A stretch of DNA of 34,047 nt from Desulfamplus magnetovallimortis (GTDB lineage: Bacteria; Desulfobacterota; Desulfobacteria; Desulfobacterales; Desulfobacteraceae): NCBI RefSeq assembly GCF_900170035.1, contig NZ_LT828543.1, positions 347,304-381,350 of the forward strand. Direction: 5' to 3'. Position 1 is the first letter of the stretch, and each line of letters opens with the position of its first letter. The notes below the pieces were generated by a model. That model ran no database searches. It was given only the letters and a program-made list of their open reading frames with translations, and was not told the origin of the DNA. Both the position numbers and the translations under genes were made by a program. Positions 5,583 to 32,192 of the stretch are shown in pieces.

Positions 5583-5597
5583 ACGAATTTTATAATC

Positions 5598-5702
5598 TTA
5601 GGAATGAGCAGGAAATAACTTTCCCATTCTCCCCCTCTCCAGACATGGAGAGGGGGCTATGGGGTGAGGTAAATGGGCAACTTATTTAGACCCCGTTCCT
5701 AA
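5598..5702. mobile_element. MITE-like inverted-repeat element, family D, copy 1
   Basis: The ends are inverted: TTAGGAATG at the left and CGTTCCTAA at the right, with AAATAACTTTCCCATT inside the left arm matching the complement of AAATGGGCAACTTATTT in the right arm. The core holds a perfect 10-bp hairpin, CCCCCTCTCC with GGAGAGGGGG. A second copy with a different core is at 20182-20287. There is no coding capacity. The right end supplies the first bases of the AAGGAG ribosome-binding site of the following chemoreceptor gene. Confidence 0.7.
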
Positions 5703-7698: not shown

Positions 7699-7849
7699 GA
7701 ATAGTACGAAACCACGTTCCCTTACTCTATTCATGGAGAAAGAAATAATACCAGGACAACTAAATTTTTTTAGGTCAATGACAAGGGGGCTGTGACCCTA
7801 CACTTTTTGCACGAATGGTCCCTGGATCCCTTTTTAGAAAGGATGAATA

Positions 7850-10011: not shown

Positions 10012-10062
10012 AACTTATGACTCACGAGAATATCCGTGAGTCATAAGTTATCTATCTTTTTT
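10012..10062 (+). terminator. strong rho-independent terminator after the chemoreceptor pair
   Basis: A perfect 15-bp stem: AACTTATGACTCACG at 10012-10026 and its complement at 10035-10049, with an 8-base loop, followed six bases later by CTTTTTT (10056-10062). It lies 117 bases after the chemoreceptor stop codon and ahead of the tandem repeats and the kinase gene, so it should isolate the kinase operon from upstream transcription. Confidence 0.75.
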
Positions 10063-10219
10063 ATATGAAAGTCCCCGTAGTTCAAGGTTTTTCAGGACTT
10101 TCATGCTTCGTTGTGGCAGATAGGTCTGCCATGGCCGTTATATGAAAGTCCCCGTAGTTCAAGGTTGTTCAGGGCTTTCATGCTTCGTTGTGGCAGATGG
10201 TTCTGCCATGGCCGTTATA
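10062..10219 (+). repeat. tandem pair of 78-bp double-hairpin repeats, family C
   Basis: Two near-identical units (from 10062 and 10140). Each has an outer hairpin, GAAAGTCC pairing with GGACTTTC (or GGGCTTTC in unit 2, a G-U change), then a second hairpin, TGGCAGA-tagg-TCTGCCA, and the tail CATGGCCGTTATA. Further copies are at 26263-26345 and, as a 3' half only, at 32140-32192. The second hairpin and tail match those of the 61-bp family B units in the phosphonate operon. The pair lies directly upstream of the large kinase gene. Confidence 0.85.
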
Positions 10220-13200: not shown

Positions 13201-15130
13201 TGAAAAAGGACTTGATTTTAACCTTCTTATTGATGAGAAGATACCTGAGCATTTTATGGGCGATCCCAATCGTATCAAGCAAATTATTACTAATTTTACT
13301 GGAAATGCCTTAAAATTCACTTCACAGGGAAGTGTGACGATAAAGGTGGAAGCCATAGATGTAATGCAGGATGGTCAGAAAGTAAAAATATCTGTAATGG
13401 ATACCGGCAAGGGGATCTCTAAGGAAAACCATGACAAACTCTTTAAAGCTTTCACACAGGAGGATATTTCCACAACCCGAACATATGGAGGAACAGGCCT
13501 TGGTCTTGCCATTTCAAAATTATTGGCAGAAATGATGGGAGGCAAAATCGGCTTTGAAAGCCAGGCTGATCAAGGCAGTGTTTTCCACATAACACTTGAT
13601 ATGCAGTTTGCCAGTGTGGTGCAGTTTGATGGTAATATTATGATCACATCAAACATACATGGTGCCCGTATCCTTATAGTGGATGATGAACATTACTCCA
13701 GGGAGATGTTAAAGGAAACCATCAACAGCTTTTCCTTCACGCTGGATGAAGCACCAAGTGCTGAAAAAGCCCTGCAAATGATGGAAACGGCATCCACACC
13801 CTATGATCTGATTCTTTTGGACTGGAAAATGCCAAATAAAAGCGGCACATCGTTTTATCAGGAGTTAAGGCATAAGCATACTCATATAAGACTACCCAAG
13901 GCCATTCTGATAAGTGCCTATAACAATCCGGAACTAATTGATGAAGCCCGTGAGGCTGGTATAACAACAGTTCTTACAAAACCTGTTAAGCCATCGGATC
14001 TTCTTGTCAGCATTGTTAATTCACTGGGAAAAGAGATTCTGGTACAGGAGATCAATAAAAACCAGTCTGATATTAACAAGGTTGCCTTTATGGGACAAAC
14101 AATACTGCTGGTTGAAGATAACAGCCTCAACCAGGAGGTATGCCAGGAAATCCTTGAAATGCTTCGCCTTAATGTAATGATTGCAAATAACGGCCAGGAG
14201 GCGGTTGAGTGTTTTGAAAAAAACTGCTCAGAAATAGATCTTGTACTTATGGATCTACAGATGCCTGTGCTTGATGGATATGGTGCTTCCCAAAAAATAC
14301 GCAAGCTGCCTTCAAGCAGTAATATCCCTATCATAGCACTTAGTGCAGATGCCATTTCAGGTACCCGTGAAAAAGCCATTGCCAGCGGAATGAATGACTA
14401 TACCACCAAACCCATTGTCCCGTCCAATCTCATAAAAACCTTGATGAGGTACCTGGACTACCAGCAACTTGAAGTATCTTCAATCCGTAAAGAAAGCAAT
14501 GAAAACAGTAAAAACTGTGAAAACCGTGAAAACAGTTTTCCAAAGATATCTGGAATTGATACAGAGCAAGGGATAGCAAATCGTATGGGAAATGCAGAAA
14601 GCTATAAGAAGGTATTGCTGAAATTTTCCAAAAACTACAGGACATTTGTGCAAGAATGTATTGAAGCCTATAACCAAAACGATTTCAAGAACCTTGTAAA
14701 AAGCCTCCATACATTTAAAGGTGTTACGGGTAACATTCAGGCAACGGAGATATCTGCTTTGACCATGAAAATTGAAGTTATGGCAAAAAATAATAACCAT
14801 GAATGCACTTACTTGCTTAAGGAGCTTGACAATAAGGTTGAAACCCTATGCAGGGATATAGAAAAAACTCTGTCGCATATACCGGACTCCCCCTATGCAA
14901 AACCAGTGATATCCAGTGAAAACTTGACCAGAAAACTTGAAGATATTATGAGACTACTGCTGGAAAGTGATACAAAGGCACGCAGCGAAATGGAAATCCT
15001 TCTCTCCATAGAACTTCCCCATGCCATACAATCTTGCATTGAAGCTGCTGCTGAAGCCATTAATGGATATGATTTTGATGAAGCAATTGCTTATGCCAAC
15101 GATGCACTTAAAAGGTTGAAAAATGAATAA
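10247..15130 (+). CDS. large hybrid sensor histidine kinase with three periplasmic binding domains
   Basis: A 1627-residue membrane kinase. A signal or anchor segment (about 8-30) precedes an NMT1/THI5-like binding domain (about 48-300; FAGFYAAKEKGYYQDAGL). Two bacterial solute-binding family 3 domains follow (about 330-570 and 610-840), then a membrane helix (about 843-862), HisKA with phospho-acceptor H903 in [10 protein letters not shown], an HATPase with DTGKGIS and [13 protein letters not shown]1 (D1192), REC2 (D1336) and a C-terminal Hpt domain (H1488 in LHTFKG). A phosphorelay to the overlapping response regulator is likely. Near the N-terminus a short tandem duplication (SPHTQEV, SPHIQEV) is coded by 10355-10402. 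AGGA stands seven bases before the ATG. Ligands are unknown; the NMT1 fold in other proteins binds pyrimidines, riboflavin or sulfonates. Confidence 0.93.
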   Translation: MSIVKFPWIIKAVKLFCCFFFTLLNIISSHAPSAEELSPHTQEVSPHIQEVSLQFQWKHQFEFAGFYAAKEKGYYQDAGLKVTFHEYHNEMELIDDVIEGKKDFGVGPSSVIIERLEGKPIRLLANYFKRSPLVIAAKPEIKFPGDLYHKKLMITEKDLNNPNIKHMLAFADIEPEDLSIIQHSFDINDFIQGKVDAVTIFITNEAFELNRKKIPHTIINPNIYGGISFDANLFTSETTALASPSMVLHFRDASNKGWLYALEHIDEMVDLILTKYNTQNKSRAQLLFEAKEIKKIMLPTIYPVGSLSPGQNWYGSSINNNEMFSLTVEEREFLKSHPVIRVSNEMDWIPFDFCINREPHGYSVDLMHILEKHIGVKFIFVNGYSWAQLLQLFKEKRIDLIQSSIITRETEQYTLFSDPYLSYQNGFVVPEESHEIPSIDDFFYKTIAVPWKSAQAKFLKSTYPRIDLLYTNDNYEAFEKVMNGEADAAIENKLTMLYMQGKRMTAGLKNSGWFKEMDNGRVMTLHLGIRNDWPLFLSIINKFLKQITPGEINSLDRKWFGGSLPMFQEDKISSHEELMLSKRNNISTDSIEILKKDETIQFTNEEIDYLKKKGTIKMCVLPDWLPYESINKDGEHQGIGAEMMKIISRRINTPIELLPTREWGESLQKMRARKCDILPLAMDVPSRQDAMNFTKPYIVEPFVIATHNSELFIKDIKDIGNRAIGVIKNYAFTEVLKQFYPNLNIIHVKNARDGLEKVRSEDIFGYIDSMPTIGYTLQKYSMMDLKIAGKLEFDLELSIASRSDEPLLASIMQKAADSITEEERRRIISKWLSVKFEQGFNYALFWKFLAGSLIILLGIGYWNRTLLIEIKKRKEMEKHLEHASREALAASKAKGDFLANMSHEIRTPMNAIIGMSALALNKDFSGDAQRYFKNINTSGQSLLGIINDILDFSKIEAGKIEIEKTPFSLREILENIVVIFEPAALEKGLDFNLLIDEKIPEHFMGDPNRIKQIITNFTGNALKFTSQGSVTIKVEAIDVMQDGQKVKISVMDTGKGISKENHDKLFKAFTQEDISTTRTYGGTGLGLAISKLLAEMMGGKIGFESQADQGSVFHITLDMQFASVVQFDGNIMITSNIHGARILIVDDEHYSREMLKETINSFSFTLDEAPSAEKALQMMETASTPYDLILLDWKMPNKSGTSFYQELRHKHTHIRLPKAILISAYNNPELIDEAREAGITTVLTKPVKPSDLLVSIVNSLGKEILVQEINKNQSDINKVAFMGQTILLVEDNSLNQEVCQEILEMLRLNVMIANNGQEAVECFEKNCSEIDLVLMDLQMPVLDGYGASQKIRKLPSSSNIPIIALSADAISGTREKAIASGMNDYTTKPIVPSNLIKTLMRYLDYQQLEVSSIRKESNENSKNCENRENSFPKISGIDTEQGIANRMGNAESYKKVLLKFSKNYRTFVQECIEAYNQNDFKNLVKSLHTFKGVTGNIQATEISALTMKIEVMAKNNNHECTYLLKELDNKVETLCRDIEKTLSHIPDSPYAKPVISSENLTRKLEDIMRLLLESDTKARSEMEILLSIELPHAIQSCIEAAAEAINGYDFDEAIAYANDALKRLKNE

Positions 15131-16133
15131 AGACTCGGAAACAAAGACAATCTTAATAGTTGATGATGTCCCTGAGAATATAGATCTTCTTGCAGACATA
15201 CTAAACACTAAGTATATTACTAAAGCTGCTATTAGTGGCGAAAAAGCATTGAAGATACTAAAGAGTGGAGCAAAGATAGATCTGGCTCTTCTTGATATCA
15301 ATATGCCATCTATGGATGGCTATGAGCTTTGCATGAGGATAAAAAAGGATACAAAACTCCAAAGAATCCCTGTAATTTTCATAACCGCAAGTAACGAGAA
15401 TCAAGATGAAATCAAGGGATTTGATGTGGGAGGAGTTGACTATATAACAAAGCCTGTTAATCCAGCCATTGTGCTTAGAAGGGTAAAAACGCACCTGTCA
15501 CTGGTTCACATGGATGAACTGCAAAAAACAAGTCTTTTGGTAATACAGCAATTAGGAAAAGCTGCCGAGTTCAAGGATAATGAAACTGGTCTTCATGTTA
15601 TACGTATGTCCCACTATTCTCGTATTATCGCAGAAAAACTGAGCAATGCACATGAATGGACAAATCTTGTTTTTCGTGCATCACCCATGCATGATGTGGG
15701 TAAGATAGGAGTTCCCGACAACATTCTTTTAAAGCCAGGACCTTTAAATGATAATGAGTGGAAAATAATGCGAAGACATCCACGTATGGGCTATCAAATC
15801 ATTGGAGGTCATGACTCAAAACTTTTAAAACTGGCTTCCGAGATAGCCCTGAGCCACCATGAAAAGTGGAACGGCACTGGATATCCGGGTGGATTGAAGG
15901 GGGACGAGATACCCCTGTCTGGCCGTATAGTGGCCATAGCTGATGTATTTGATGCTTTAACCACAAAAAGACCTTACAAAGAAGCATGGGCAGTGGAAAG
16001 GGCAATCGATCACATCAAAAAAGAATCAGGTTCCCATTTTGATCCAGAACTTGTGCCGCTTTTTCTAAGTTCCATGGGTGAAGTGCTTGCAGTACGTGAT
16101 CAATGGGGGGAACCCGAGACCAAGGCAGAGTAA
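15123..16133 (+). CDS. response regulator with HD-GYP domain (cyclic-di-GMP phosphodiesterase)
   Basis: A cytoplasmic REC domain (1-120, acceptor D58 in LLDINMPSMDG) is joined to an HD-GYP domain (about 140-330). The domain keeps the metal-binding HD of MHDVGKIGVPD, later histidines in MRRHPRMGYQ and ALSHHEKWNG, and the GTGYPGGL signature, so it should be an active cyclic-di-GMP hydrolase. Its ATG overlaps the last eight bases of the hybrid kinase gene, which implies translational coupling and makes it the likely final target of that phosphorelay. AAGG upstream lies inside the kinase coding sequence. The stop codon TAA is itself the first three bases of a family B repeat. Confidence 0.93.
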   Translation: MNKDSETKTILIVDDVPENIDLLADILNTKYITKAAISGEKALKILKSGAKIDLALLDINMPSMDGYELCMRIKKDTKLQRIPVIFITASNENQDEIKGFDVGGVDYITKPVNPAIVLRRVKTHLSLVHMDELQKTSLLVIQQLGKAAEFKDNETGLHVIRMSHYSRIIAEKLSNAHEWTNLVFRASPMHDVGKIGVPDNILLKPGPLNDNEWKIMRRHPRMGYQIIGGHDSKLLKLASEIALSHHEKWNGTGYPGGLKGDEIPLSGRIVAIADVFDALTTKRPYKEAWAVERAIDHIKKESGSHFDPELVPLFLSSMGEVLAVRDQWGEPETKAE

Positions 16134-16259
16134 ACGGTCATGGCTGTCATCCAGCCACCCCCTAATATGAAAATATGTATCCATTTTCACGGTAAACGGA
16201 CATGGCAGACGTTTCGCCACCCCCGAGAATGAAAATAATGTATCCATTTCCACGGTAAA
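16131..16259 (-). repeat. tandem pair of 61-bp double-hairpin repeats, family B
   Basis: Two head-to-tail units (16131-16195 and 16192-16259), reading TAAACGG(T/A)CATGGC at the left and CATTTCCACGGTAAA or CATTTTCACGGTAAA at the right. Unit 1 has the stem TGGCTG-tcatc-CAGCCA and a second stem GAAAAT with ATTTTC. The first unit begins on the stop codon of the HD-GYP gene. The orientation is the reverse of the copies at 20053, 23409 and 24688, but relative to the adjacent upstream gene it is the same: TAAACGG first. Confidence 0.85.
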
Positions 16260-16300: not shown

Positions 16301-16476
16301 TACATATCCCCTGACGGAAGTATTTTGGTTCACCCAAAAGAAGACTAAGTATTAACTCCACCAGCCAGTCTCTATCCGAGCTGGCAGATTACAGTACCAG
16401 AATGACGGCCAATGCAGAATCGGTTGCAGTGCTGTCAAACAGCCTGAAACAACTTATGGGAATTTTTAAGGTTTAG
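16301..16476 (+). pseudogene. remnant of a dCache chemoreceptor gene with a large internal deletion
   Basis: Bases 16298-16345 translate as AYISPDGSILVHPKED and then stop; this matches [17 protein letters not shown] of the chemoreceptor at 5713-7698 (its bases about 6317-6371). Directly after, 16351-16476 translate as 41 residues beginning [18 protein letters not shown] and ending LMGIFKV-stop, matching the last 41 residues of the same chemoreceptor with few changes. About 1.2 kb that would separate the two parts is missing. No start codon or upstream receptor sequence remains. It is therefore a decayed copy of a close paralogue, lying between the HD-GYP gene and the convergent phnW. Confidence 0.85.
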
Positions 16477-16523
16477 GGTGTCAGCAGATAATGAGAGAAA
16501 TGGAATTTAGCAAATGATTCATC

Positions 16524-17648
16524 TCATTTCCAGTACATCGCCGATTTAACTGCTTTAGTCAACCGTGTGATATCTTCCGGGTATATCTCCCCTATATTGC
16601 CTATGCGGAATGTATCCAGGTTGGTGACTTTGCCGGGATAGATCACAAATCCACTTTTTTTGAGTTCTCCATAGAATCGTTTAAATTGATACTCAGGATG
16701 ATTGGGGCTGTAAAAAGAGGTAATGATGGGAGAACGATACATTTTGGGTAGCAGAGGAACAAACCCCAGTGCCTCCATTCCCTGTATTAAAAGATCATGG
16801 TTTGTGGAATATCTCTCGTATCGTTTTGCCACACCGCCTTCGGACTCAAGTTCCTCAAGGGCGTGGGCAAAGGCCCGAACCGTATGTGTCGGTGAGGTGA
16901 AGCGCCACTTACCTGAATGTTGTTCCATGGTTTGCCACTGATCATAGAGATCAAGACTTAAGGATCCTGCCCGCCCTTTTGTCTCTTCCAGTACGTTCTG
17001 TTTGGCAATGACAAATCCAAATCCGGGAACCCCCTGAATGCATTTATTGGCGCTGCTTACCAGATAGTCCGCCCCAATGCTTTCCATATCCATGGGGATT
17101 CCGCCGAAACTGCTCATGGCATCAACGATGTAAATACGGTTGTGATCTTTGACGATTTCTCCAACGGTTTCAATGGGATTGAGCATGCCTGTGGTGGTTT
17201 CGCAATGCACCATGGCCACGTGGGTAATGGAGGGATCTTCATCCAGAATACGGGAGATATGTCCCGGCTCAGGTATCTCCACCTCCCCGCTATTACTCAA
17301 TTGATAGGGAACCCCGCAACGCTGGGCAATGGTAGCTATGCGTAACCCATAGGCCCCATTGGCCAGCACCAGGAGCTTTCCATCCCTTGGAACAGCAGAG
17401 GTCACCACAGACTCGACACTGAAGGTTCCGCTTCCCTGCATAAGCACGCTGGTATAGCCTTCGGTATTTGTTGCCAACTGAACCAGTTTTTTCCGGATGT
17501 TTTGAACAATGGTGTTGTAATCCTTATCCCAGGTACACCAGTCCTGTAGCATCACGTTTTTTACACCCTTTGAGGTGCTCAGGGGCCCCGGAGTCAAAAG
17601 AAGATAGGGATTATCTGGGATTTCATCGATTTTGAGATGTCTCTTCAT
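16524..17648 (-). CDS. phnW: 2-aminoethylphosphonate--pyruvate transaminase
   Basis: A class V-fold PLP aminotransferase that transfers the amino group of 2-aminoethylphosphonate to pyruvate, giving phosphonoacetaldehyde and alanine. The start, [14 protein letters not shown], is characteristic of PhnW, and the PLP lysine is K202 in [24 protein letters not shown] supplies the PLP-ring aspartate. Length 374 is normal for the family. It is the last gene of the phosphonate block, 19 bases after the ammonia-lyase-type gene, with AGGA seven bases before the ATG. It converges on the chemoreceptor remnant, and I see no clear terminator in the short gap. Confidence 0.95.
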
Positions 17649-17667
17649 ATGTCAATCCTATGTATAT

Positions 17668-19179
17668 TTACAATTCGTTATGAATGCCTAAAAACTTTTG
17701 TTCAACTTCAGTGATTACCGAATCGAGGATGTTCATTGCATGATCCAATTCATCTTTGGTAATGGTCAAAGGGGGTGTCAGTGTCAGAAAATTTCCTTGT
17801 GAGATCTTGAAACTGAGTCCCTTGGACAATGCTCCGTACAGAATGGCATCTGCGACATCAGCTACATCAACAGTTGATTTAAGATCTGTACAGCCGATTT
17901 CCATTCCGAACAGTAACCCTATACCTCGAACATCCCTGATGAGGAGATGATGCGTTTTCATGGATACCAATTGATTGACTGCATAAGTGCCTGATTCAAC
18001 GGTTTTTTCCAAAAGCCCCTCCGATTCGATGAACTCGATGGTGGCAAGGCCGGCTGCGCATCCCACCGGGCTTTTTTCATGGGTATAGTGCCCCAGTGCC
18101 TTGTCCGGTGCCAGATCCAAATCGCGTCTTGCGACAATGGCTGCCATGGGCAAAACCCCTCCACCAAGGCCCTTTCCCAACGTCAAAATGTCGGGTTCTA
18201 CATCATAGTTTTCACAGGCAAACATCTTGCCGGTACGCCCCAGACAGACGGCGGTTTCGTCGAAAATCAGCAATGCACCGTGTTTGTCACACGCTTTTCT
18301 TACCGCCTGCCAGTAGCCCTTTGGAGGCAAGTTGATGTTGGTGCAGCGGACAGGTTCGGCAATCAGTGCCGCCACATCGCCCTCTTTTTCCAGCACATAG
18401 TCGATGTATGTCGCACATTTGAGCCCGCATGCCTCACAATCCCCATTGGAATCCCATAAACAGGATGAAGGATCTGCCGGAGGCACGTGCTCTGTACCCG
18501 GCAAAAGCGGACCGATCCCCCTGCGAAACAGTGCTTCTCCCCCTAGGGAAATGGCATCTAGTGATGCCCCGTGAAAGGCATCCCACATGGAGATGGTCTT
18601 GAATCGTCCCGTGACGATTCGAGCCAGTTTCAGGGCCATACCCACAGCAAGGGTGCCGCCGGGTGCAAAGAGAACTTTTCCAGCTACGTTGTTCTGTCCC
18701 GACACTTTTCCCGAAAAACTTGATGAGCCTACCGGAGCAAGACTCCCAAGCTTTTCCGCCAGCTTGATGGCCGGTACATTGGTGTAGCGCCTGGGACTAA
18801 AAGGAAGAGTACCCAACTGAGATCTCACCGCCTCCAGCACCTTTGGATTGCCAAACCCCACTTGGTGGACGCTGTTTCCATGGAAATCCAGAAAAGTGCG
18901 CCCCTCCAGATCGGTGATAGTGCTTCCCTCACACGACATCAACACGTCAAGGCAGGGGGAAGAAAGGGATTGGTGAAGAAACGCCTCTGCATCTCGCTCC
19001 AACCAATGTCGGGTCTCATCTCCAATAAACTTCTCAGACCATTTCTGCCTGGCAGAAGAGAGATTAATATCTCCCTCCGTCCTGTCGGCTTTTTGGGGAG
19101 TTTTCTCATTCACAGATGACGACTCTCCCGGCATTGACGATGATCCCGTTTGAAGATTATGGGAACTATGATTTATCAT
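17668..19179 (-). CDS. pbfA: PLP-dependent class III aminotransferase-fold enzyme, probable 1-hydroxy-2-aminoethylphosphonate ammonia-lyase
   Basis: A fold-type I PLP protein with FLDFHGNSVHQVGFGNP, APGGTLAVGMALKLAR and the PLP lysine K336 in LTLGKGLGGG. This pattern, and a position between phnW and phnX, match PbfA, which eliminates ammonia from (R)-1-hydroxy-2-aminoethylphosphonate to give phosphonoacetaldehyde, the same product as PhnW. A cysteine cluster (C-x7-C-x2-C-x3-C) follows the HVPPADPSSC segment. The usual DE-x-x-T-G-x-GRTG motif here reads DETAVCLGRTG. The first 40 or so residues are serine-rich and non-conserved; a later start such as M16 is possible. AGGGA precedes the chosen ATG, which lies five bases after the phnX stop. 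A generic transaminase remains an alternative. Confidence 0.85.
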   Translation of the reverse strand: MINHSSHNLQTGSSSMPGESSSVNEKTPQKADRTEGDINLSSARQKWSEKFIGDETRHWLERDAEAFLHQSLSSPCLDVLMSCEGSTITDLEGRTFLDFHGNSVHQVGFGNPKVLEAVRSQLGTLPFSPRRYTNVPAIKLAEKLGSLAPVGSSSFSGKVSGQNNVAGKVLFAPGGTLAVGMALKLARIVTGRFKTISMWDAFHGASLDAISLGGEALFRRGIGPLLPGTEHVPPADPSSCLWDSNGDCEACGLKCATYIDYVLEKEGDVAALIAEPVRCTNINLPPKGYWQAVRKACDKHGALLIFDETAVCLGRTGKMFACENYDVEPDILTLGKGLGGGVLPMAAIVARRDLDLAPDKALGHYTHEKSPVGCAAGLATIEFIESEGLLEKTVESGTYAVNQLVSMKTHHLLIRDVRGIGLLFGMEIGCTDLKSTVDVADVADAILYGALSKGLSFKISQGNFLTLTPPLTITKDELDHAMNILDSVITEVEQKFLGIHNEL

Positions 19180-19184
19180 TCATC

Positions 19185-20036
19185 TTATTTCCCTAATTGA
19201 TCCATGGGGTGCTCACCCTTTGCAAGCCGGTTGTTGATATCATCAATGATAGGCAGGCAATCCCAGATTCCTTCCACAATGTAATGGGAACCCACTTCAC
19301 TGTAATTTGCTTCGATGGCTTTTAACCGGCTGTGGAGATCAGTTAGATCCAGTGCGTTCACTTCCGCTTCGGTCAATCCAAGCTCATTTCCGGACTTGGT
19401 AAGTCCGATGGTCCACATACCGGCATTAAGCCCCTCCTGAATATCGCTGAGAGTGTCGCCAATTTTAACCATGGACTCCATGGGATGGATATCCATCTTC
19501 ATGGCCAGCAGATAGCACATCCAGGGATAGGGACGACCGGCAGGGACATCGGAAGAGCAGACAACGGCATCGGGAGAGTAGCCTTTCTCCTTTGCAATGG
19601 GAACCAGGACATCCATCATGGATGTGGTGTATCCGGTGCAAGATCCGATGGAAAGAGCGCGATCGCGCATGCCCTGGACCGCCTCGTGAACCCCGGGGAT
19701 GAGTTCGGCATTGTCGGCGATGGCACCCACCATCAAGGATTCGGTTCTTTCGTAGAGCTTCTCCACATCGCTCTCATCGGGTTTGCGGCCATGTTGGCTT
19801 ACCCACTGGGCTACCACTGAAGGAAGATTGCACATCCCCCGGATATGATCTTTTTTCATCAATCCCATAAACTGTCTGGCTTCGGCCACGGTCACATTGA
19901 TATTGATCTCATTGAATACTTTGAGAAATACATCTGCAGGCCCCATGCATCCGTAATCAACAGCTGTTCCTGCCCAGTCCAGAATTGCCCCCTGAAGGGG
20001 GCCGGTATAACGTTTGTTCCGAATAAAAACTGACAT
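19185..20036 (-). CDS. phnX: phosphonoacetaldehyde hydrolase (phosphonatase)
   Basis: A HAD-superfamily enzyme that hydrolyses the C-P bond of phosphonoacetaldehyde to acetaldehyde and phosphate. The nucleophile is the aspartate of ILDWAGTAVDYG (residue 20). The Schiff-base lysine that defines this family is in MGLMKKDHIRG (about residue 61). SSDVPAGRPYPWM and KIGDTLSDIQEG complete the HAD motifs. Two in-frame ATGs are six bases apart; AAAGGA is one base from the upstream ATG (20042) but seven from the downstream one, so I place the start at 20036. It is tightly coupled to the ammonia-lyase-type gene (five-base gap). Confidence 0.95.
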   Translation of the reverse strand: MSVFIRNKRYTGPLQGAILDWAGTAVDYGCMGPADVFLKVFNEININVTVAEARQFMGLMKKDHIRGMCNLPSVVAQWVSQHGRKPDESDVEKLYERTESLMVGAIADNAELIPGVHEAVQGMRDRALSIGSCTGYTTSMMDVLVPIAKEKGYSPDAVVCSSDVPAGRPYPWMCYLLAMKMDIHPMESMVKIGDTLSDIQEGLNAGMWTIGLTKSGNELGLTEAEVNALDLTDLHSRLKAIEANYSEVGSHYIVEGIWDCLPIIDDINNRLAKGEHPMDQLGK

Positions 20037-20052
20037 AGTCATTTCCTTTATT

Positions 20053-20180
20053 TTACCGTGGAAATAGATACAATATTTTCATGGTCGGGGGTGGCGAAAC
20101 GTCCGCCTTGTCCGTTTACCGTGAAAATGGATACAAATTTTCATATTCGGGGGTGGCTGAGTCACAGCCATGTCCGTTTA
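20053..20180 (+). repeat. tandem pair of 61-bp double-hairpin repeats, family B
   Basis: Two units (20053-20117, 20115-20180), each TTACCGTG(A/G)AAAT...GGGGGTGGC...CCGTTTA. In unit 1 the second stem is GGCG-aaacgtc-CGCC (20093-20107), whereas unit 2 has TGGCTG-agtca-CAGCCA: both sides changed together. The pair lies just upstream of phnX, abutting the inverted-repeat element at 20182-20287. Confidence 0.85.
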
Positions 20181-20181
20181 C

Positions 20182-20287
20182 TAAGGAATGAAGACGAAAT
20201 AACTTTCCCATTTTAAAATATACATATTCCGTAATTCAATGGATCTGCATTCTGAAATGGGTAAGTTATTTAAAACCCATTCCTAAC
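20182..20287. mobile_element. MITE-like inverted-repeat element, family D, copy 2
   Basis: The left arm contains TAAGGAATG and AAATAACTTTCCCATTTT; the right arm contains AAATGGGTAAGTTATTT and CCCATTCCTAAC, which are the inverted counterparts. The arms match those of 5598-5702 but the 40-base core is unrelated, as expected if only the ends matter. It has no coding capacity and lies in the gap between the permease gene and phnX. Confidence 0.7.
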
Positions 20288-20330
20288 CAATTTTAAATAT
20301 TGTCTATTTTGATTCTACTCTTTCCCTATC

Positions 20331-22079
20331 TCACCATCCAGGCCTGGGTTCGTTTTTTACCCCTTTTGTCGCAAGACCAAAGAGCATTCTTGCCAGCAGA
20401 TTTGCCAGCACGATCAGAATGGACATGGCACATGCAGGAGCGATGTCTCCTGCATCATCCATATTGGCCACCGCCACCGATGCCAGAGGGAGATTGGCGG
20501 AGTAGAGGAATATGACGGCAGAGACCGTTGCCATGGAGTTGACAAAATAGTACATGGCAATCTCCAGGATTGCCGGCATGCAAACCGGTACTGTGACACA
20601 AACGAACGTCTTGTAAAAGGGCACTCCCATGGATTCGGAAACGATCTCGAATTCTTTGTCCAGTTGCTTCAATGCCGTTGTGGCAGTGAGAAAACTGACT
20701 GAATAGAAATGGACAATGTTACTCATAACCAAAATGCCCATTGTGGCATACAGGAACCCCAATGGATTGGGGATAAACATCCCGGCAATGCTCCACCCCT
20801 TTGCATTGAAAAAAAAGATATAAGAAAGACCGATTACAAGACCCGGCAGGGCCAGGGGAAGAATGGAGAGAAAGTAACTGATTTCCCGCAGTACTCTCAT
20901 TTGACGGCTTTTTTCAATCAGATAGGCGGCACTGAATGTAATAACGGTGCCGAAAGCCGCAGAGTAGAACGCCATGCGAATACTGTTAAAGAATGCGGCA
21001 TATCCCCCTCCTCCCATGTCGGAGAAGTTGTAGTGCCAGAAACCAAGATTCAGCTTGTAGGGCCAGACTTTCACCAGGGAAGCAAATAGTGAAGTACTGT
21101 AAAAACCAACGATTAGAAGTGCAATAAAAGCGCAGTACGTCAAAAACAGAGTATCCTTCAATCGTTCCGGTTTCGGGATAAGAGGCACCGATTTTGCAGC
21201 AATTATGGCCACCTGCTTACGTTGAACGATTCGATCCACAATAAAAGCGATGACGGTGGGGATCAGAAGAACGACACTGACCACTGCCCCCATCACAAAA
21301 TTTTGTTGACCGATCACCTGTTTGTAAATGTCTGTGGAGAGAATGTTGAAATTGCCCCCCACAACCTTGGGAGCTCCGAAATCGGTAAAAGCTAATATAA
21401 AGCAGACAAAGACGGCACTGATCAAACCATATTTAATCCCGGGAATTGTTACGGTAAAAAAGGTCTTGATCTTACTGGCACCCAGAGAGTCGGATGCTTC
21501 GTATAACCTGGCATCGGTCATATTCAATGCGATGGAAAGAATCAAAACGGCCTGGGGAAACGCAAACAGTACCTCAGAAATGATGATCCCCACCGGGCCG
21601 TACAGATGGATGTCAAAACCGGGAATGGTACCGAAGAAACCAGTGGTGAACAACCCTTTCCTGCCGAACAGATAGACCAATGAAATACCGTTGAGAAGTG
21701 TTGGCGCAAAAAGGGGCATCATGGCAAGGCCTTTGAAAAATGCTTTGCCGGGGATTGTTGTCCGAGTGAGGGCATAGGCGTAAAGGAATCCAAGACCAAC
21801 TGCGATCAATGTCGTCAATATGGAGACAAACAGACTGTTGCCGATGGAGTTTGATAGCGCCGGTGTCTTGAAATAGTGGACATAGTTTGCAAACCCCACG
21901 AAATTCCCTGCATTGTCCATAAGGCTTTTTGACAGCAACTGAAATATGGGTAGAATCACCACAACCAGCATCCAGAGACAGACCAGTCCGATAAGCAGCC
22001 GGCGGATCCATAACTCCTTATCTATGGTCTGTGAGAGGGGCAACCTTTCCAGAGGTGCTTCTATTGCAAGTTGTGACAC
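20331..22079 (-). CDS. 2-aminoethylphosphonate ABC transporter permease, fused two-domain type
   Basis: A 582-residue inner-membrane permease with about twelve helices in two binding-protein-dependent halves, as in FbpB/ThiP-like transporters and the PhnU2 type associated with AEP operons. Each half carries the cytoplasmic EAA loop that docks the ATPase: SDSLGASKIKTFFTVTIPG and SESMGVPFYKTFVCVTVPV. It would form the channel with the ATPase at 22205-23311 and receive substrate from the binding protein at 23543-24580. Translation starts at GTG (22079), with AGGAGG five bases upstream. AEP specificity is inferred from the operon, not from the permease itself. Confidence 0.87.
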   Translation of the reverse strand: MSQLAIEAPLERLPLSQTIDKELWIRRLLIGLVCLWMLVVVILPIFQLLSKSLMDNAGNFVGFANYVHYFKTPALSNSIGNSLFVSILTTLIAVGLGFLYAYALTRTTIPGKAFFKGLAMMPLFAPTLLNGISLVYLFGRKGLFTTGFFGTIPGFDIHLYGPVGIIISEVLFAFPQAVLILSIALNMTDARLYEASDSLGASKIKTFFTVTIPGIKYGLISAVFVCFILAFTDFGAPKVVGGNFNILSTDIYKQVIGQQNFVMGAVVSVVLLIPTVIAFIVDRIVQRKQVAIIAAKSVPLIPKPERLKDTLFLTYCAFIALLIVGFYSTSLFASLVKVWPYKLNLGFWHYNFSDMGGGGYAAFFNSIRMAFYSAAFGTVITFSAAYLIEKSRQMRVLREISYFLSILPLALPGLVIGLSYIFFFNAKGWSIAGMFIPNPLGFLYATMGILVMSNIVHFYSVSFLTATTALKQLDKEFEIVSESMGVPFYKTFVCVTVPVCMPAILEIAMYYFVNSMATVSAVIFLYSANLPLASVAVANMDDAGDIAPACAMSILIVLANLLARMLFGLATKGVKNEPRPGW

Positions 22080-22095
22080 GATATCCTCCTGTTAT

Positions 22096-22167
22096 GGTAA
22101 ACAGTCATGGCCCAATAACACTTCGGCCACCACCGACCATGAAAACCATGACCTGTTTTCACGGTCA
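22096..22167 (-). repeat. degenerate family B double-hairpin repeat
   Basis: Reads GGTAAACAGTCATGGCCC at the left and CTGTTTTCACGGTCAAAA at the right, so it is one family B unit in the same plus-strand sense as 16131-16259 and opposite to the other operon copies. The stem is altered to TGGCC(C)/GGCCA with a longer loop. It lies in the gap between the ATPase and permease genes. Confidence 0.6.
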
Positions 22168-22204
22168 AAACGTCTTTCCAGCATTCCCAATGTAGAACAC
22201 TTTT

Positions 22205-23311
22205 TCAGGCAGCATATACCCTGATGCGATCCACAGGCAGATGGATCGGGAGATGCATATTCTCTTGAAGTCCCAAACGTCGTACTTTTTCAGAAGGAAC
22301 ATCTGCATCAATGGTGGTATAATCGTTTCCAGAGATGGGCAGGTTCAGCGAAAGACGAAACAGTGAACCTCGATATTCGATGGCAGACACCAGGGTATTC
22401 AGGGTGTTGATACCATCTCCCCCATCCGCCTGAATCATGACATCTTCCGGACGGACACCGATCATCACAGGCTCCCCATTTTGAACCCTCCGTGCACCCC
22501 TCCCGTTTGAAATTTTCAGACGATGCTCTCCGACACCGAATATGCCATCTTCCATTTTACGTACTTTTGTAATGAAATTCATGGAGCCTATGAAGGATGC
22601 CACAAACGGCGTTGCCGGTTTGTCATACACTTCGCCAGGAGTACCCATCTGAACCAGCTTTCCTCTGTCAATGATCAGAATACGGTCCGCCATGGTCAGC
22701 GCTTCTTCCTGATCATGGGTGACCATGATGGTAGTCACTCCCAGCCGTTTTTGAAGTTGTCGGATTTCGGAACGAAGTCTGATCCTCACTTTGGCATCCA
22801 GTGCGGAAAGAGGTTCATCCAAAAGCAGCAGATGCGGAGATATGGCCATGGCACGGGCCAGTGCCACCCGTTGCTGCTGACCACCGGAAAGCTGCGCCGG
22901 ATATTTATTTCCCATACCGCTCAACCCTACTGTTTCAAGAAGCTCCGTCACTCTTCCCTCAACCCCTTTTGCCTTCTTTGATCGCTGCTTCAATCCATAG
23001 GCAATATTATCTTCGGCCGTTAGATTGGGAAAAAGCGCATAAGACTGAAATACAATCCCCACATTTCTGCGGGAAACCGGCAGTTGGGTCACATCCCGTC
23101 CCTCAACGACAATTGTTCCAGATGTCGGCTTTTCAAGCCCGGCAATTGCCCGCAACACCGTCGTTTTTCCGCAGCCACTTGGCCCTAACACGCAGAGAAA
23201 CTCTCCTAATTTCGTTGAAAATGAAATATCATCCAGTGCGGTAAATTTTCCAAATTTTTTCGTCAGTTGATGAACGGACAAATAGTCCGATATCTCTCCA
23301 TGTTGTGTCAT
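22205..23311 (-). CDS. 2-aminoethylphosphonate ABC transporter ATP-binding protein
   Basis: A 368-residue ABC ATPase that would energise phosphonate uptake. Walker A is GPSGCGKTT (43-51), the signature LSGGQQQRVALARA, Walker B LLLLDEPLSALD, and the switch histidine is in VTHDQEEAL. A C-terminal TOBE-like domain (about 245-360; VMIGVRPEDVMI) is typical of spermidine/iron/AEP importers (PotA/FbpC/PhnT2). GGAG eight bases before the ATG supports the start. A putrescine, iron or sulfate-type specificity cannot be excluded from this protein alone, but the neighbours phnX and phnW make AEP the best call. Confidence 0.9.
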   Translation of the reverse strand: MTQHGEISDYLSVHQLTKKFGKFTALDDISFSTKLGEFLCVLGPSGCGKTTVLRAIAGLEKPTSGTIVVEGRDVTQLPVSRRNVGIVFQSYALFPNLTAEDNIAYGLKQRSKKAKGVEGRVTELLETVGLSGMGNKYPAQLSGGQQQRVALARAMAISPHLLLLDEPLSALDAKVRIRLRSEIRQLQKRLGVTTIMVTHDQEEALTMADRILIIDRGKLVQMGTPGEVYDKPATPFVASFIGSMNFITKVRKMEDGIFGVGEHRLKISNGRGARRVQNGEPVMIGVRPEDVMIQADGGDGINTLNTLVSAIEYRGSLFRLSLNLPISGNDYTTIDADVPSEKVRRLGLQENMHLPIHLPVDRIRVYAA

Positions 23312-23408
23312 CTACTCCCACTCCTATTAAGTCAGGTCGGCTTTGTGTCAACACCCCACTCCCTGATAGGAGAGGGGGAAGTTATGCGAGTTTTGATTCC
23401 CTTTCCAT

Positions 23409-23474
23409 TTTACCGTAAAAATGGATACAAATTTTCATATTCGGGGGTGGCTGAGTCACAGCCATGTCCGTTTA
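23409..23474 (+). repeat. single 61-bp double-hairpin repeat, family B
   Basis: One unit, TTTACCGTAAAAATGGATAC to GCCATGTCCGTTTA, with stem TGGCTG-agtca-CAGCCA. It sits between the binding-protein and ATPase genes. Just beside it, 23355-23385 holds CCCCACTCCCTGATAGGAGAG, reminiscent of the hairpin core of the family D element at 5598-5702. Confidence 0.85.
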
Positions 23475-23542
23475 TTCCCTCCTCCTAACCTTACCGAAGA
23501 GAAATGAATACAATCACAAAATAATACGGTCACAAGGGAATC

Positions 23543-24580
23543 CTATTTTGGGTCACTTTTGACGTCATACCGTTTGCTCCACTCTGCCAGAATACGAACA
23601 CGGTTTTTGGCTGCCCAATCAAAATCGTTCTCAACAAGCTGTTCTTCCGGGTTTGCGGGAAAACCATCCGGAACGGGCTGACCGCTGTCATAGGCGGTGA
23701 CAGGATAGACTTTTCCATACTCTTTCATGATCGATTCACTGATGGCCCAGTCAAGGAATAGTTTAGCAGACGATTTAATGGTATCTTTTTTGATCAGACA
23801 GTTGGCCTCCACATCCCAGCCGGAACCGCTTTTGGGAAACACCGTAATAACCGGCTCCCCTTTTTTCTTCTGCATAAAGCCGCGATAGGCAAAGGATATG
23901 CCCACGGGAACTTCTCCGGCACCGGCAAGTTTACATGGTTTGGAGCCGGAATGGGTGTATCTGGCAATGTTTTTATGAAGACGATCAAGATAATCCCACC
24001 CTTTTTCTTCACCCATACTTTGCAGAATGGCAGAAACCGTCAAGAATCCGGTACCGGATGATGCCGGATTGGGCATGGCCAGCTGATCGGCAAATGCCGG
24101 GTTTGTCAAATCCTCGTAATCCGCAGGCATGGGCAGACCCAGCGATTCCAGCTCAATTGTGTTCACGCAAAATCCGGTCATCCATGCTTTGATACCGACC
24201 CAGGCTGGAGTAGCCGCTTTGTCACGCATTTTAGGGCGTACCTTTTCAAGCCCTTTGGGAGCATAGGGTTGGACCATTCCGGCTTGATTACACAGCATGA
24301 GGCTTGTGGCTGCAGTTCCCCAGACCACATCCGCTCTGGGATTGTCTTTTTCGGCCAGCAGTTTGGCCGTAATAATACCGGTGGAATCCCGAACGATCTT
24401 GATATCGATACCTGCATGCTCCTTTTTAAACAGTTCCAGGTAGCCTGGGATCTCATCATCTTCCAAGGCCGTGTAAACCAGCAGTTCTTCAGACCATGCT
24501 GTGGAACTAATACACATCAGCATAGAGAAAACCACTACTGATCCAATCCAGCTTACAAAATTTTTTCCAAAGCTCTTCAT
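23543..24580 (-). CDS. 2-aminoethylphosphonate ABC transporter periplasmic binding protein
   Basis: A 345-residue type II periplasmic binding protein of the iron/AEP (PhnS2-like) cluster. A signal peptide (1-30, cleaved near STAWS-EE) precedes LLVYTALEDDEIPGYLELF, the usual opening strand and helix, and RADVVWGTAATS, the ligand-cleft loop. It would deliver AEP, and possibly 1-hydroxy-AEP, to the permease. AGGAG lies five bases before the ATG. The binding residues for iron in related FbpA proteins (paired tyrosines near the C-terminal half) are not obvious, in keeping with an organophosphonate ligand. The assignment to AEP rests on family plus operon. Confidence 0.88.
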   Translation of the reverse strand: MKSFGKNFVSWIGSVVVFSMLMCISSTAWSEELLVYTALEDDEIPGYLELFKKEHAGIDIKIVRDSTGIITAKLLAEKDNPRADVVWGTAATSLMLCNQAGMVQPYAPKGLEKVRPKMRDKAATPAWVGIKAWMTGFCVNTIELESLGLPMPADYEDLTNPAFADQLAMPNPASSGTGFLTVSAILQSMGEEKGWDYLDRLHKNIARYTHSGSKPCKLAGAGEVPVGISFAYRGFMQKKKGEPVITVFPKSGSGWDVEANCLIKKDTIKSSAKLFLDWAISESIMKEYGKVYPVTAYDSGQPVPDGFPANPEEQLVENDFDWAAKNRVRILAEWSKRYDVKSDPK

Positions 24581-24611: not shown

Positions 24612-24684
24612 TTAGCGCACTTCGTGCGGGCTTTTCCATAATTAGCTGTTTTTGCAGGATAAAAATGGAAATTCCTATACTATT
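24612..24684 (+). repeat. dispersed repeat, family A, copy 3
   Basis: TTAGCGCACTTCGTGCGG to CCTATACTATTTA, direct orientation relative to the copy at 53-132, with the CGCAC-TTC-GTGCG hairpin intact. It is joined without a gap to the four-unit family B array, so the whole binding-protein/GDPD intergenic region is repeat DNA. Confidence 0.85.
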
Positions 24685-24687
24685 TAT

Positions 24688-24936
24688 TTACCGTGAAAAT
24701 GGATACATATTTTCATATTCGGGGGTGGCTGAGTCGCAGCCATGTCCGTTTACCGTGAAAATGGATACAAATTTTCATATTCGGGGTGGCTGAATCACAG
24801 CCATGTCCGTTTACCTTGAAAATGGATACATATTTTCATATTCGGGGGTGGCTGGATGACAGCCATGACCGTTTACCTTGAAAATGACTATCATTTTTAT
24901 ATTTGGAGGTGATTGATACGCAATCATACCCGTTTA
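24688..24936 (+). repeat. four-unit tandem array of 61-62-bp double-hairpin repeats, family B
   Basis: Units begin at 24688, 24749, 24811 and 24872, a period of 61-62 bases. Each contains TGAAAAT...ATTTTCA, then GGGGGTGGC, a second hairpin and CCGTTTA. Second stems: TGGCTG/CAGCCA in units 1 and 3, with unit 2 close to the same, but TGATTG-atacg-CAATCA in unit 4 (24910-24926), where both arms have changed. On the transcribed strand unit 4 starts five bases after the GDPD stop codon. There are no unique spacers, so this is not a CRISPR array. Confidence 0.9.
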
Positions 24937-24941
24937 TTATA

Positions 24942-26213
24942 TTATTTCAATCCTTTGCAGTTTGCATAAAAAGTGACTGTTGCAGGCCAATCAGAAAAAA
25001 TACCCAGAATACCGACTTCCTGAGCCAATACATCCAGAGCCGTCAGCATATCACCATCGTTGTTGGTTGCATCTTTTATTGTCTGATAATACCATCCACC
25101 ACCATTTTTCAGAAGCCCCGAACGCTCAAGCGTCCAGGTGATGATATCAAGCCCGGCTGCTTTTGCTCGTCTGGCATATTCCGACGGCACAATTTTACCA
25201 TTATCAACAGTGAGGAGCATCCACATGGGAGGAGCAATTATTCTCACGTTTTTTGCAAACAGCTCTTCCATGCTTGGTGACCAGGTTTCCGGCTTTGTGA
25301 TGTCAAAATTTTTGTCTTCTTCATCACGGCCATCCAAATAGACCGCCTGTTTGCCGAATTGAGGGTCACTCTTCAGCCAGTAAATGACATCATCCAGGTT
25401 GAAGGATTGGGGAAATACATTTTGGGGGTCAACCCCTGCTTTTTTATAATCATTTAGCATCTGCTGGGCGTATTGTGCCTGGGTGTAATCACCGTCAAAA
25501 GGCATTGAGACACTGGGAGATTTAAGCTCCGGAGTCATTTTCATGCCAAGGCTTTTAAAAAGCTCAATGCTCTCTGCGTGGGTCATAAGGGTACCTTTGG
25601 CAGTGTAGAGGTCAGTCCGCCAGCTCGGGGTGGCATTAATATACTCCTCCACAGTTTTAGCTTTGGAATTGGAAGCATCCATCTTGCCTTTGAGCATTTT
25701 GAACTCTTCAAGGGTAATGTCGCTGGTGCAGCACTTGGCAGAGGCAGGTTTTATCATCTCTCCTGTATTTGGATCAAACTCCGCAGGTGTAAAAGGCTCG
25801 GAACATTTGGCAGCCAATTCAGGAATGGCAAGAATATTGGTGGTGGTATGAAGATCGCATTGGGAGTGGCGGCAGACAAGCTCCCTGTCTTTTGTGAAGG
25901 TTACATCACACTCACAGATGCCAGCTCCCATCATGGCTGCAGCTTCATAGGATTCTTTTGTGTGTTCGGGAAACTGCATGGCCGCTCCTCTATGACCGAT
26001 GGAAAAATCGGTTCTGTAAAAGGGGCCGTCAACACACTCTCCAAGGGCTTTTTTCAGAGTACCTTCATCCATGTCATTGACAAGATAAAATGGACGGGGG
26101 CCAAGTTGAATGGTGTCATTGTTTCCCATTTTTTTCTCGTCGGCAGAGACAAACGATGCAAAATAGCACAATGCAGCAAAAATAGTGATGGTGGACATAA
26201 TTGTTTTACGCAT
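24942..26213 (-). CDS. secreted glycerophosphodiester phosphodiesterase
   Basis: A predicted periplasmic GDPD (GlpQ-like) that would cleave glycerophosphodiesters to an alcohol and glycerol-3-phosphate. Signal peptide 1-24 ([12 protein letters not shown]). The catalytic histidine is H74 in [29 protein letters not shown] and [10 protein letters not shown] give the metal and second histidine ligands. It is longer (423 residues) than typical GlpQ and carries extra cysteines in its middle (AKCSEP, AKCCTSD). An in-frame TTG at 26222 is only three bases from GGAG, so I prefer the ATG at 26213, spaced twelve bases. It is first in the minus-strand phosphonate block, separated from the binding-protein gene by about 360 bases of repeats, so cotranscription is uncertain. 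Confidence 0.88.
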
Positions 26214-26262
26214 GTTAATCAAATTCTCCTCATTTTTAAGATGTTAAAGTGGTCTTTTTATT

Positions 26263-26345
26263 AGAAAGTCTCCATAACATGCTGACATACAAAGACTTCC
26301 ATGGTTTGTAGTGACAGATAGATCTGCCATGGCCGTTATATGAAA
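26263..26345 (+). repeat. diverged family C double-hairpin repeat
   Basis: Resembles the units at 10062-10219. GAAAGTCT at the left pairs with AGACTTCC, where the last pair has changed together relative to GAAAGTCC/GGACTTTC. Then come TGACAGATAGATCTGCCA and the tail TGGCCGTTATATGAAA. It lies between the GDPD gene and the small ORF upstream. Confidence 0.7.
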
Positions 26346-26597: not shown

Positions 26598-26703
26598 GGC
26601 ATGCTTCATTTCCCAGTTTACACTTTCCTAATAGAAAACTCTGAATGGCGGGAACCTCTCACAAAAAAGTGTAAAGTACTTTTGGAGTCAAATGAAGGGT
26701 GCC
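26598..26703. mobile_element. palindromic TTTACACTTT element, family E, copy 1
   Basis: The ends are GGCATGCTTCATTT and its inverted counterpart AAATGAAGGGTGCC; inside these are TTTACACTTT and AAAAGTGTAAA. The same end pattern is found at 28407-28557. The two copies flank the chemoreceptor at 26750-28321. About 50 bases downstream of the receptor stop codon, the palindrome might also act as a transcription end. Confidence 0.7.
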
Positions 26704-28406: not shown

Positions 28407-28557
28407 GGCATCTTTCATTTGTCGTTTTACACTTTTTTTGAATCATGATTTTCATGATTAAGGGATTACCTTGATTTTTAATCGTGTTAATCCTTTAATC
28501 ATGGTTCAGAATTTTTAGAAAAGTGTAAACTAATTTTGAGTTGATATGAAGGATGCC
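28407..28557. mobile_element. palindromic TTTACACTTT element, family E, copy 2
   Basis: The ends are GGCATCTTTCATTT and ATATGAAGGATGCC, with TTTTACACTTTT and AAAAGTGTAAAC just inside. The centre holds nested hairpins: AATCATGA-ttt-TCATGATT, and GATTAAGGGATTA pairing with TAATCCTTTAATC apart from one G-U. It fills most of the 275-base gap between the chemoreceptor and the solute-binding gene. The remainder, 28322-28406, is AT-rich and probably carries the receptor promoter. Confidence 0.75.
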
Positions 28558-31800: not shown

Positions 31801-32139
31801 TATTTACCGTTGATGTGGATAAAAAAAATTTAGCACTCATTATATTGCCTTTGCGAGCGCTTTCACTTTTTATTGTCAATGCTTCATGAAACGCCATACG
31901 ACTCTTGATTTGAAAAAATAGCAGAATCAAATTTGTTTTTCATTAGAGCAATGTAATATTCTTGTTAGAATTTTCAAACAACATCAAAATCCAGACCAGC
32001 GCCTTAAAGCCTCTTTGCAACTTCAGGAAACGATGTCATAATTTTTTCCAGAAAATGATATTGTTATTAATAATCAAATTACCAGTTTCTAATGAAAAGC
32101 TAACAAACTGACTGTAATATGCTTCCTATGGCAATTTCT

Positions 32140-32192
32140 AAAGGACTTTCATGATTCGTTGTGGCAGATGGTTCTGCCATGGCCGTTATATA
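32140..32192 (+). repeat. 3' half of a family C repeat
   Basis: AAGGACTTTCATGATTCG, then TGGCAGA-tggt-TCTGCCA and the tail CATGGCCGTTATATA. The 5' arm of the first hairpin (GAAAGTCC) is absent. The copy overlaps the left end of the nested palindrome at 32186-32373. The rest of the 31801-32139 stretch is AT-rich with no gene or repeat that I can support. Confidence 0.75.

Follow-up and report, generated by a model that had tools for sequence, protein, structure and literature searches.

A ~62-bp double-hairpin repeat of Desulfamplus magnetovallimortis with the features of a minimal, probably non-autonomous, mobile element inserted at TTTA

Elements of the IS200/IS605 group have no terminal inverted repeats, produce no target-site duplication and insert 3' of a tetra- or pentanucleotide (PMC7290912). 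Palindrome-associated transposable elements (PATE) are ends-only derivatives of this group that are moved in trans (PMC7290912, PMC6006769). REP sequences are defined by a GTAG or GTGG tetranucleotide that precedes the foot of the hairpin by 0-2 nt on its 5' side (PMC6006769), and a REPIN consists of two inverted copies of one REP (PMC3116915).

The repeat described here, family B, was recognised in a 34,047-nt stretch of the D. magnetovallimortis genome (the window, whose first letter is position 1) and consists of two different hairpins in a fixed order, with the common form TTTA-CCG-TGAAAAT(loop)ATTTTCA-TATTCGGGGG-TGGCTG(loop)CAGCCA-TGNCCG-TTTA. Ten units of 61-63 bp are present in the window, and both of their stems vary pairwise. 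These units, and those of families A and C that are discussed with them, are located as follows.

10061..10218, + strand: two family-A units of 77 bp, target TTAT, with the two-hairpin plan of B
16131..16259, - strand: pair of B units with a common TTTA at 16193-16196
20052..20180, + strand: pair of B units of unlike types, GGCG/CGCC then TGGCTG/CAGCCA, with a common TTTA at 20115
22098..22168, - strand: lone B unit, each of its two stems altered pairwise, flanked by TTGA on the left and TTTA on the right
23409..23474, + strand: single B unit
24612..24690, - strand: family-C copy with two hairpins; the right end is GTTC in other copies
24687..24936, + strand: array of four B units, with TTTA at 24687, 24749, 24810, 24872 and 24933
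26258..26341, + strand: diverged family-A unit
32122..32185, + strand: partial family-A unit

All ten B units of the original prediction are present, at 16131, 20052, 22098, 23409 and 24687. They lie where it placed them, except that the array starts at 24687 and not 24688. The stem variants that it listed, TGATTG/CAATCA in the fourth array unit, GGCG/CGCC in the first unit at 20052 and TGGCC/GGCCA at 22098, had all been read correctly; units 1-3 of the array are of the TGGCTG/CAGCCA type, and the copy at 22098..22168 carries, in addition to its altered stem 2, a paired change in stem 1 from AAAAT/ATTTT to AAAAC/GTTTT. Neighbouring units in arrays have one TTTA in common. The outer TTTA of the 16131 pair (TAAA on the + strand, 16131-16134) contains the stop codon TAA of the gene at 15123-16133, and that of the family-C copy at 24612..24690 is the very TTTA that starts the B array; further family-C repeats lie at 54-132 and 2495-2573. 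A search of the window against Rfam 15 returned no match at the gathering score.

A probable phosphonate operon (16524-24580; two aminotransferases, a HAD hydrolase, an ABC transporter and a binding protein, as inferred from Pfam) has four B sites in its gaps and on its upstream side. The syntenic operon of the congener G006 has no B unit and, at 65-72% in the aligned pieces, is too diverged for empty sites to be read at the base level. Part of a chemotaxis receptor gene is found twice (7572-7699 and 16350-16477), once in a fragment that is 88% identical, lacks a long frame and adjoins the B pair at 16131. The best relatives of one protein encoded in the window, at 75-76%, come from sulfate reducers belonging to several genera. 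The GDPD gene at 24937-26157 has an 81% identical paralog (G000:C4:338895-340115), and the homology between the two begins at 24937, exactly where the B array ends.

The original prediction anticipated that a covariance model would find many intergenic copies beyond the window, and this proved to be so. With a model built from the ten window units (R1), the 6.68-Mb genome of the organism (G000) gave at least 150 matches at E <= 2.1e-9 (150 of the 150 scored, among 9149 first-look candidates). R1 also found 37 copies in an unselected 400 kb of contig C1 and 39 in 360 kb of contig C2, with none in 15 kb of other loci; the default R1 search recovers six of the ten window units, so that tandem units are undercounted. 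A sequence profile applied to contigs C1-C3, scanned whole (2.23 Mb), identified 293 B, 285 A and 40 C copies. The B copies occupy 205 sites (blocks), 180 of them intergenic when genes are called with a simple hexamer model, which assigns 79-84% of the contigs to genes, and their density of ~130 per Mb corresponds by extrapolation to about 880 copies in the genome. Copies were thus not confined to the window, nor was covariation lost when many of them were aligned.

Among ten genomes of the genus, each with 150 candidates scored, R1 at E <= 0.01 found at least 150 matches in G000, 145 in G002, 144 in G003, 150 in G005 and 148 in G009. B is nearly absent from the other five, with one weak match each in G004 and G008 and none in G006, G007 and G010. 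Across 86 genomes of the family, six had R1 matches, namely the five repeat-rich species and G019, which has one weak partial match. Among the loci seen, the dominant B sequence differs in each repeat-rich species, stems included, and these species-specific sequences would fit a lineage-specific spread, as expected. Comparison of a B unit with phage and plasmid collections by blastn gave no match. Family A, searched with its own model (R2), reaches further: it occurs in 11 of the 86 family genomes, from our genus and four others, G002 not being among them, and at E <= 0.1 there are 75 matches in G055 and 13 in G056. In an order-wide sample with strict filters and 15 candidates per genome, 5 of 291 genomes had family-A matches at E <= 1e-4, one of them from another family.

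The ends of the repeats are sharply defined. Outside TTTA...TTTA the flanks of B copies are unrelated, and in the 191 of 303 B matches whose ends could be parsed TTTA is found on the left in 177, on the right in 170 and on both sides in 160. For family A (139 of 289 parsed) the left end is TTAT in 132 and the right end TTAT in 102 or TTTA in 25; for family C (20 of 43 parsed) the right end is GTTC in 15 and the left end is mixed. The right ends thus read CCG-TTTA in B, CG-TTAT in A and GTTC in C. The left end of B, TTTACCGTG, and its right end, CCGTTTA, are in direct and not inverted relation, unlike the terminal inverted repeats of a DDE-type MITE.

At six distinct loci a filled site with TTTA on both sides could be matched to an empty site with a single TTTA. 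A first comparison of seven alignments in which B lies inside other repeats gave four with a single TTTA in the empty copies (L092:18137, L197:8708, L089:18595 and L191:2280, the last partly misaligned and clear on re-search) and three that were unclear. On C1-C3, flank searches with tandem copies masked found a candidate empty homologue for 22 of 203 B blocks, of which five have an exact, intact TTTA (C1:98137, C2:182280, C2:308708, C3:111750 and C3:190226, three of them loci of the first comparison) and the remainder are imprecise. One host repeat has received different B units at the same TTTA at C1:98137, C3:111750 and C3:190226. What a filled site has gained is CCG...CCG together with one TTTA, at the place of the single TTTA of the empty site. 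Empty-site candidates exist for 16 of 216 family-A blocks; two of these candidates, both from copies of a single host repeat, have GTTAT once. Family C has candidates for 2 of 33 blocks, neither precise. We also note two other repeat families. Family D comprises palindromic repeats (GGCATGCTTCATTT...TTTACACTTTT / AAAAGTGTAAA...GATGCC; window 26598-26703 and 28407-28557) that are frequent in C1-C3 and host B insertions, and some of its copies sit inside B halves, with a possible short duplication. Family E is a dispersed repeat (AAGGAATG...GAAATAACTTTCCCATT; window 5597-5628 and 20181-20284), 81-88% alike in G005 and G009, and its copy at 20181-20284 directly adjoins the B pair at 20052-20180.

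More than one unit is found in 56 of the 205 B blocks, which have 2-6 units each. Adjacent full units are 0.679 identical in B, against 0.664 for random pairs (n=85), and 0.661 against 0.629 in A (n=63), and the best match of a unit was its neighbour in 0 of 85 cases for B and 1 of 63 for A. Because adjacent units are as unlike as random pairs, the arrays grew by separate insertions, subject to a strong rule of orientation, and not by local duplication. Adjacent full copies are always in the same orientation (85:0 in B, 63:0 in A), and when partial matches are counted the ratios are 88:2 in B, the two opposite cases being weak partial matches, 69:0 in A and 7:0 in C; A-B neighbours are in the same orientation in nine of 13 cases and opposite in four. 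Sister species also have opposite overlapping B matches, a single pair in L064 and another in L074. Every copy ends in a TTTA that can be targeted in turn, which would explain why unlike units come to stand head to tail.

Single blocks also have a preferred direction. On the assumptions that GC skew reflects the direction of the fork and that blocks are independent of one another, orientation agrees with skew in 129 of 204 B blocks (129:75, p 2e-4) and in 26 of 33 C blocks (26:7, p 0.001); for A the figure is 120 of 216 (120:96), which is not significant (p 0.12). The B bias is present both in units antisense (56:34) and in units sense (34:18) to codirectional neighbours. Relative to genes, 23 of 204 B blocks lie between convergent genes, and of the 142 between codirectional genes 90 are antisense and 52 sense (p 0.002), orientation counts that lowered our estimate of terminators and of sense RNA elements. 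CsrA-type GGA loops were likewise lowered, as by eye GGA is missing in the second subfamily.

The original prediction also held that the fold is maintained, and not just the sequence. In an alignment of the 37 copies from the unselected 400 kb (A2), 51 double-change cells keep the pair, compared with 16.4 after column shuffling and at most 16 when the pairing partner is slid; 92.8% of cells are paired, against 87.1% shuffled, and RNAalifold predicts ten pairs, six of them with double changes. An alignment of 32 copies (A3; 30 distinct rows, 31 copies being from four sister species and one the weak partial G019 match) gave 92.8 against 83.9% of cells paired and 59 against 21.0 double-change cells, the number of pairs with any double change (nine) being less clear, as it was reached in 63 of 500 shuffles. 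Family A behaves similarly, with 65 double-change cells against 17.7 among 42 copies from 11 genomes (A7). Column shuffles leave relatedness in, and alignments fitted to a model, as A2 and A3 were to R1, lean towards the structure of that model. In a model-free count, 236 parsed B copies have 81 distinct stem-2 arm pairs, 20 of which are fully paired, compared with a mean of 9.8 and a maximum of 18 in 2000 shuffles. The strongest point for covariation is that GC, CG, AU and UA occur at one same pair in separate lineages: the fifth pair of stem 2 in A3 is UA 14, CG 9, GC 3 and AU 2, and in A7 one stem-2 pair is AU 12, CG 10, UA 7 and GC 5 and one stem-1 pair GC 24, CG 13, AU 2 and UG 1.

The stems therefore covary between lineages, far beyond the window, and this part of the claim stood. 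It calls for qualification within subfamilies: in the best-defined young subfamily (n=46), 13 one-sided stem changes break a pair and 10 keep it, with no double changes, so that about as many pairs are broken as kept. Stem positions nevertheless change only half as fast within subfamilies as the other internal sites do. The paired changes are mainly differences between subfamilies. An early idea that resident copies lose pairs (65 broken, 17 kept in one subfamily, from loose ungapped matching) was weakened by a stricter run. We conclude that the fold is maintained in the copies that spread, and we limit the claim to those copies. G.T exceeds A.C (110 to 51 in 87 distinct rows, with cells often inherited and copies picked by the model), which favours the stated strand as the one that folds. 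As to whether it folds as RNA or as single-stranded DNA, we lean to DNA, given that insertion of the units is that of a mobile element.

A mobilising gene was sought in several ways. Six pairs of separated B or A ends on C1-C3 enclose 18 genes, none of them a transposase by Pfam and two without a Pfam hit. The genome of the organism contains a single intact IS200-like Y1 gene plus three weaker Y1 matches with other flanks; none of these four loci gave an R1 match. Neither Y1 nor Y2 transposases track the distribution of the repeat: Y1 genes occur in eight of the ten genus genomes but not in G009, which is rich in the repeat, and they are frequent in G004 and G006, which are free of it, and Y2 genes occur in seven of ten, again not in G009; several surveyed genomes are incomplete, and the absence of an enzyme there is weak evidence. 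In the seven family-A genomes, R2 gave four weak matches near Y1 genes: an A copy ~1.2 kb from a 344-aa Y1 gene in G056 (L330), matches at two G055 loci (L325 and L338), the A copy at L325 being ~270 nt from an IS200-like gene, and a match in the own genome (L060) that is unconvincing by eye. These proximities, that of L325 included, may be due to chance or may reflect a link with Y1, and no A copy was found near the other RAYT-length genes of the seven genomes. We also observed three broken RAYT-like Y1 genes (L061, L062 and L063, on C8 and C10 of G000) between the inverted repeats GGGGTCGGGCCA/TGGCCCGACCCC; they are possibly of the TIRYT type (PMC6006769).

How does family B compare with the systems introduced above? 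In the partly covered literature we found no paper describing it, and the original prediction, which knew of no described family with this structure, was right to that extent; its logic is nevertheless close to those of PATE and REPIN. B resembles PATE (PMC7290912, PMC6006769) in being short, with two hairpin ends, a subterminal hairpin at each end and no terminal inverted repeats, in inserting 3' of a fixed tetranucleotide (left TTTA in 177 of 191; six empty sites), and in preferring, as C also does, the lagging-strand template by the GC-skew proxy (129:75 and 26:7; 120:96, not significant, for A). It differs in its size, 62 compared with about 271 nt (PMC7290912). No parent IS with the same ends was found in C1-C3 or at the Y1 loci, and the hairpins of B nearly touch the cut sites, with TTTA at both ends, which may represent target plus element end or a duplication. 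With REPIN, B has in common hundreds of intergenic short-hairpin copies, species-specific variants and a proposed single-strand mobility in trans (PMC3116915). REPIN are inverted copies of one REP and form clusters of near-identical tandem repeats, whereas B has two different hairpins in fixed order and its arrays mix unlike units. Nor is B a canonical REP: it reads GGTGG or GGTGA, where TGG/TGA pairs with CCA/TCA and covaries, so that there is no invariant GT[AG]G guide, and no linked RAYT (TnpA_REP) gene; in family A, too, GTGG also occurs as GTGC, with compensation. Cyanobacterial small dispersed repeats (SDR) are very small mobile hairpin-forming repeats from a different phylum and of a different size, and we liken them to B by description. 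SDR are named in PMC3116915. Mitochondrial double-hairpin and repetitive hairpin elements are also mobile intergenic hairpin repeats, sometimes tandem (PMC2800124); they belong to organelle genomes, insertion rules are not established there, and the likeness is again one of description.

These collective observations suggest, with a probability that we put at roughly 0.6, that B is a ~62-bp non-autonomous mobile element that is moved in trans in a minimal single-stranded DNA manner of the IS200/IS605 or REPIN type. Mobility by oriented insertion at TTTA is well supported by the sequence comparisons, and single-strand, hairpin-guided transposition in trans is our best reading of it. A unit would insert at a pre-existing TTTA, adding CCG...CCG and one TTTA, and the new TTTA at the end of the copy would then serve as the next target, giving head-to-tail arrays almost always in one orientation; family A does this at TTAT. 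In B the folding strand lies preferentially, by the skew proxy, on leading-strand sequence, which is the lagging-strand template. Several findings weigh against the model. The mobilising gene was not found among the genes between separated ends on C1-C3 or among Y1/Y2 correlates; by eye no IS608-like guide tetranucleotide was recognised, and in family A there is no room for one because the target is 1-2 nt from hairpin 1; the strand bias of A is insignificant, and some neighbours are opposite; and the traces expected of an RNA intermediate at the fork are largely the same. The flanking TTTA pair, moreover, resembles a 4-bp target duplication, and IS200/IS605 elements are said to make none (PMC7290912). 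More tentatively, A, B and perhaps C might form a lineage of free-living 60-95 nt single-strand elements that outlived any parent IS and use an enzyme of a new or unsuspected type, with all signals read by the transposase contained in the two hairpins and a few end bases and with a different target tetranucleotide in each family (TTTA, TTAT, GTTC).

The same TTTA ends and empty sites would also result if reverse transcription copied a small folded transcript into a nick or a nascent end, where the UUUA at the 3' end of the transcript would pair with a target TAAA, so that the fold would be that of an RNA. Fork-primed insertion, a bias known for group II introns without endonuclease, would produce the same strand bias, and the G.T excess fits RNA equally well; we nevertheless consider this route unlikely, as 90 of the 142 sites flanked by codirectional genes have the unit in antisense, and promoters of neighbouring genes would not read most copies. 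It is less probable still that the units are primarily host elements acting in place, as RNA or DNA (terminators, messenger stabilisers, protein-binding or regulatory sites), with spread being secondary. Their intergenic placement (180 of 205 blocks) and the halved divergence of stems within subfamilies would suit such roles, but antisense units outnumber sense units where the neighbours are codirectional (90:52) and convergent genes flank only 23 of 204 blocks, making a terminator role unlikely; half or more of the one-sided stem changes break pairs, and five congeneric species manage with no or one weak match.

Two explanations based on recombination fare worse. A tyrosine or serine recombinase could act on folded sites in the manner of integrons, exchanging a short core (G^TT), which would account for the right ends CCG-TTTA, CG-TTAT and GTTC and for head-to-tail arrays of unlike units that resemble cassette arrays. 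We think this very improbable: the two ends are non-complementary and so cannot form a long hairpin of the attC type, the R-box consensus used for the integron comparison is unmatched, and the copies are dispersed. Least credible is an origin of the copies in local duplication and recombination, no transposition system being involved and the covariation stemming from a few duplicated variants. Relatedness does survive column shuffles, and part of the covariation excess may be inherited; against this, adjacent units differ as much as random pairs, precise empty sites lie inside unrelated host repeats, and four standard pair types are found at one position in separate lineages.

If transposition through single-stranded DNA is indeed what spreads these families, it would have left a natural record of its action at the replication fork in genomes that contain well over a thousand copies. 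Unlike-unit arrays, single-base empty sites and species-specific stems make target choice, strand bias and structure readable from the sequence alone. At ~130 copies per Mb, B is also relevant to the assembly and annotation of such genomes. With ~62 bp it would rank among the smallest DNA units for which there is sequence evidence of oriented, site-specific mobility, and its sister families with different target tetranucleotides would provide a natural test of how the target is encoded.
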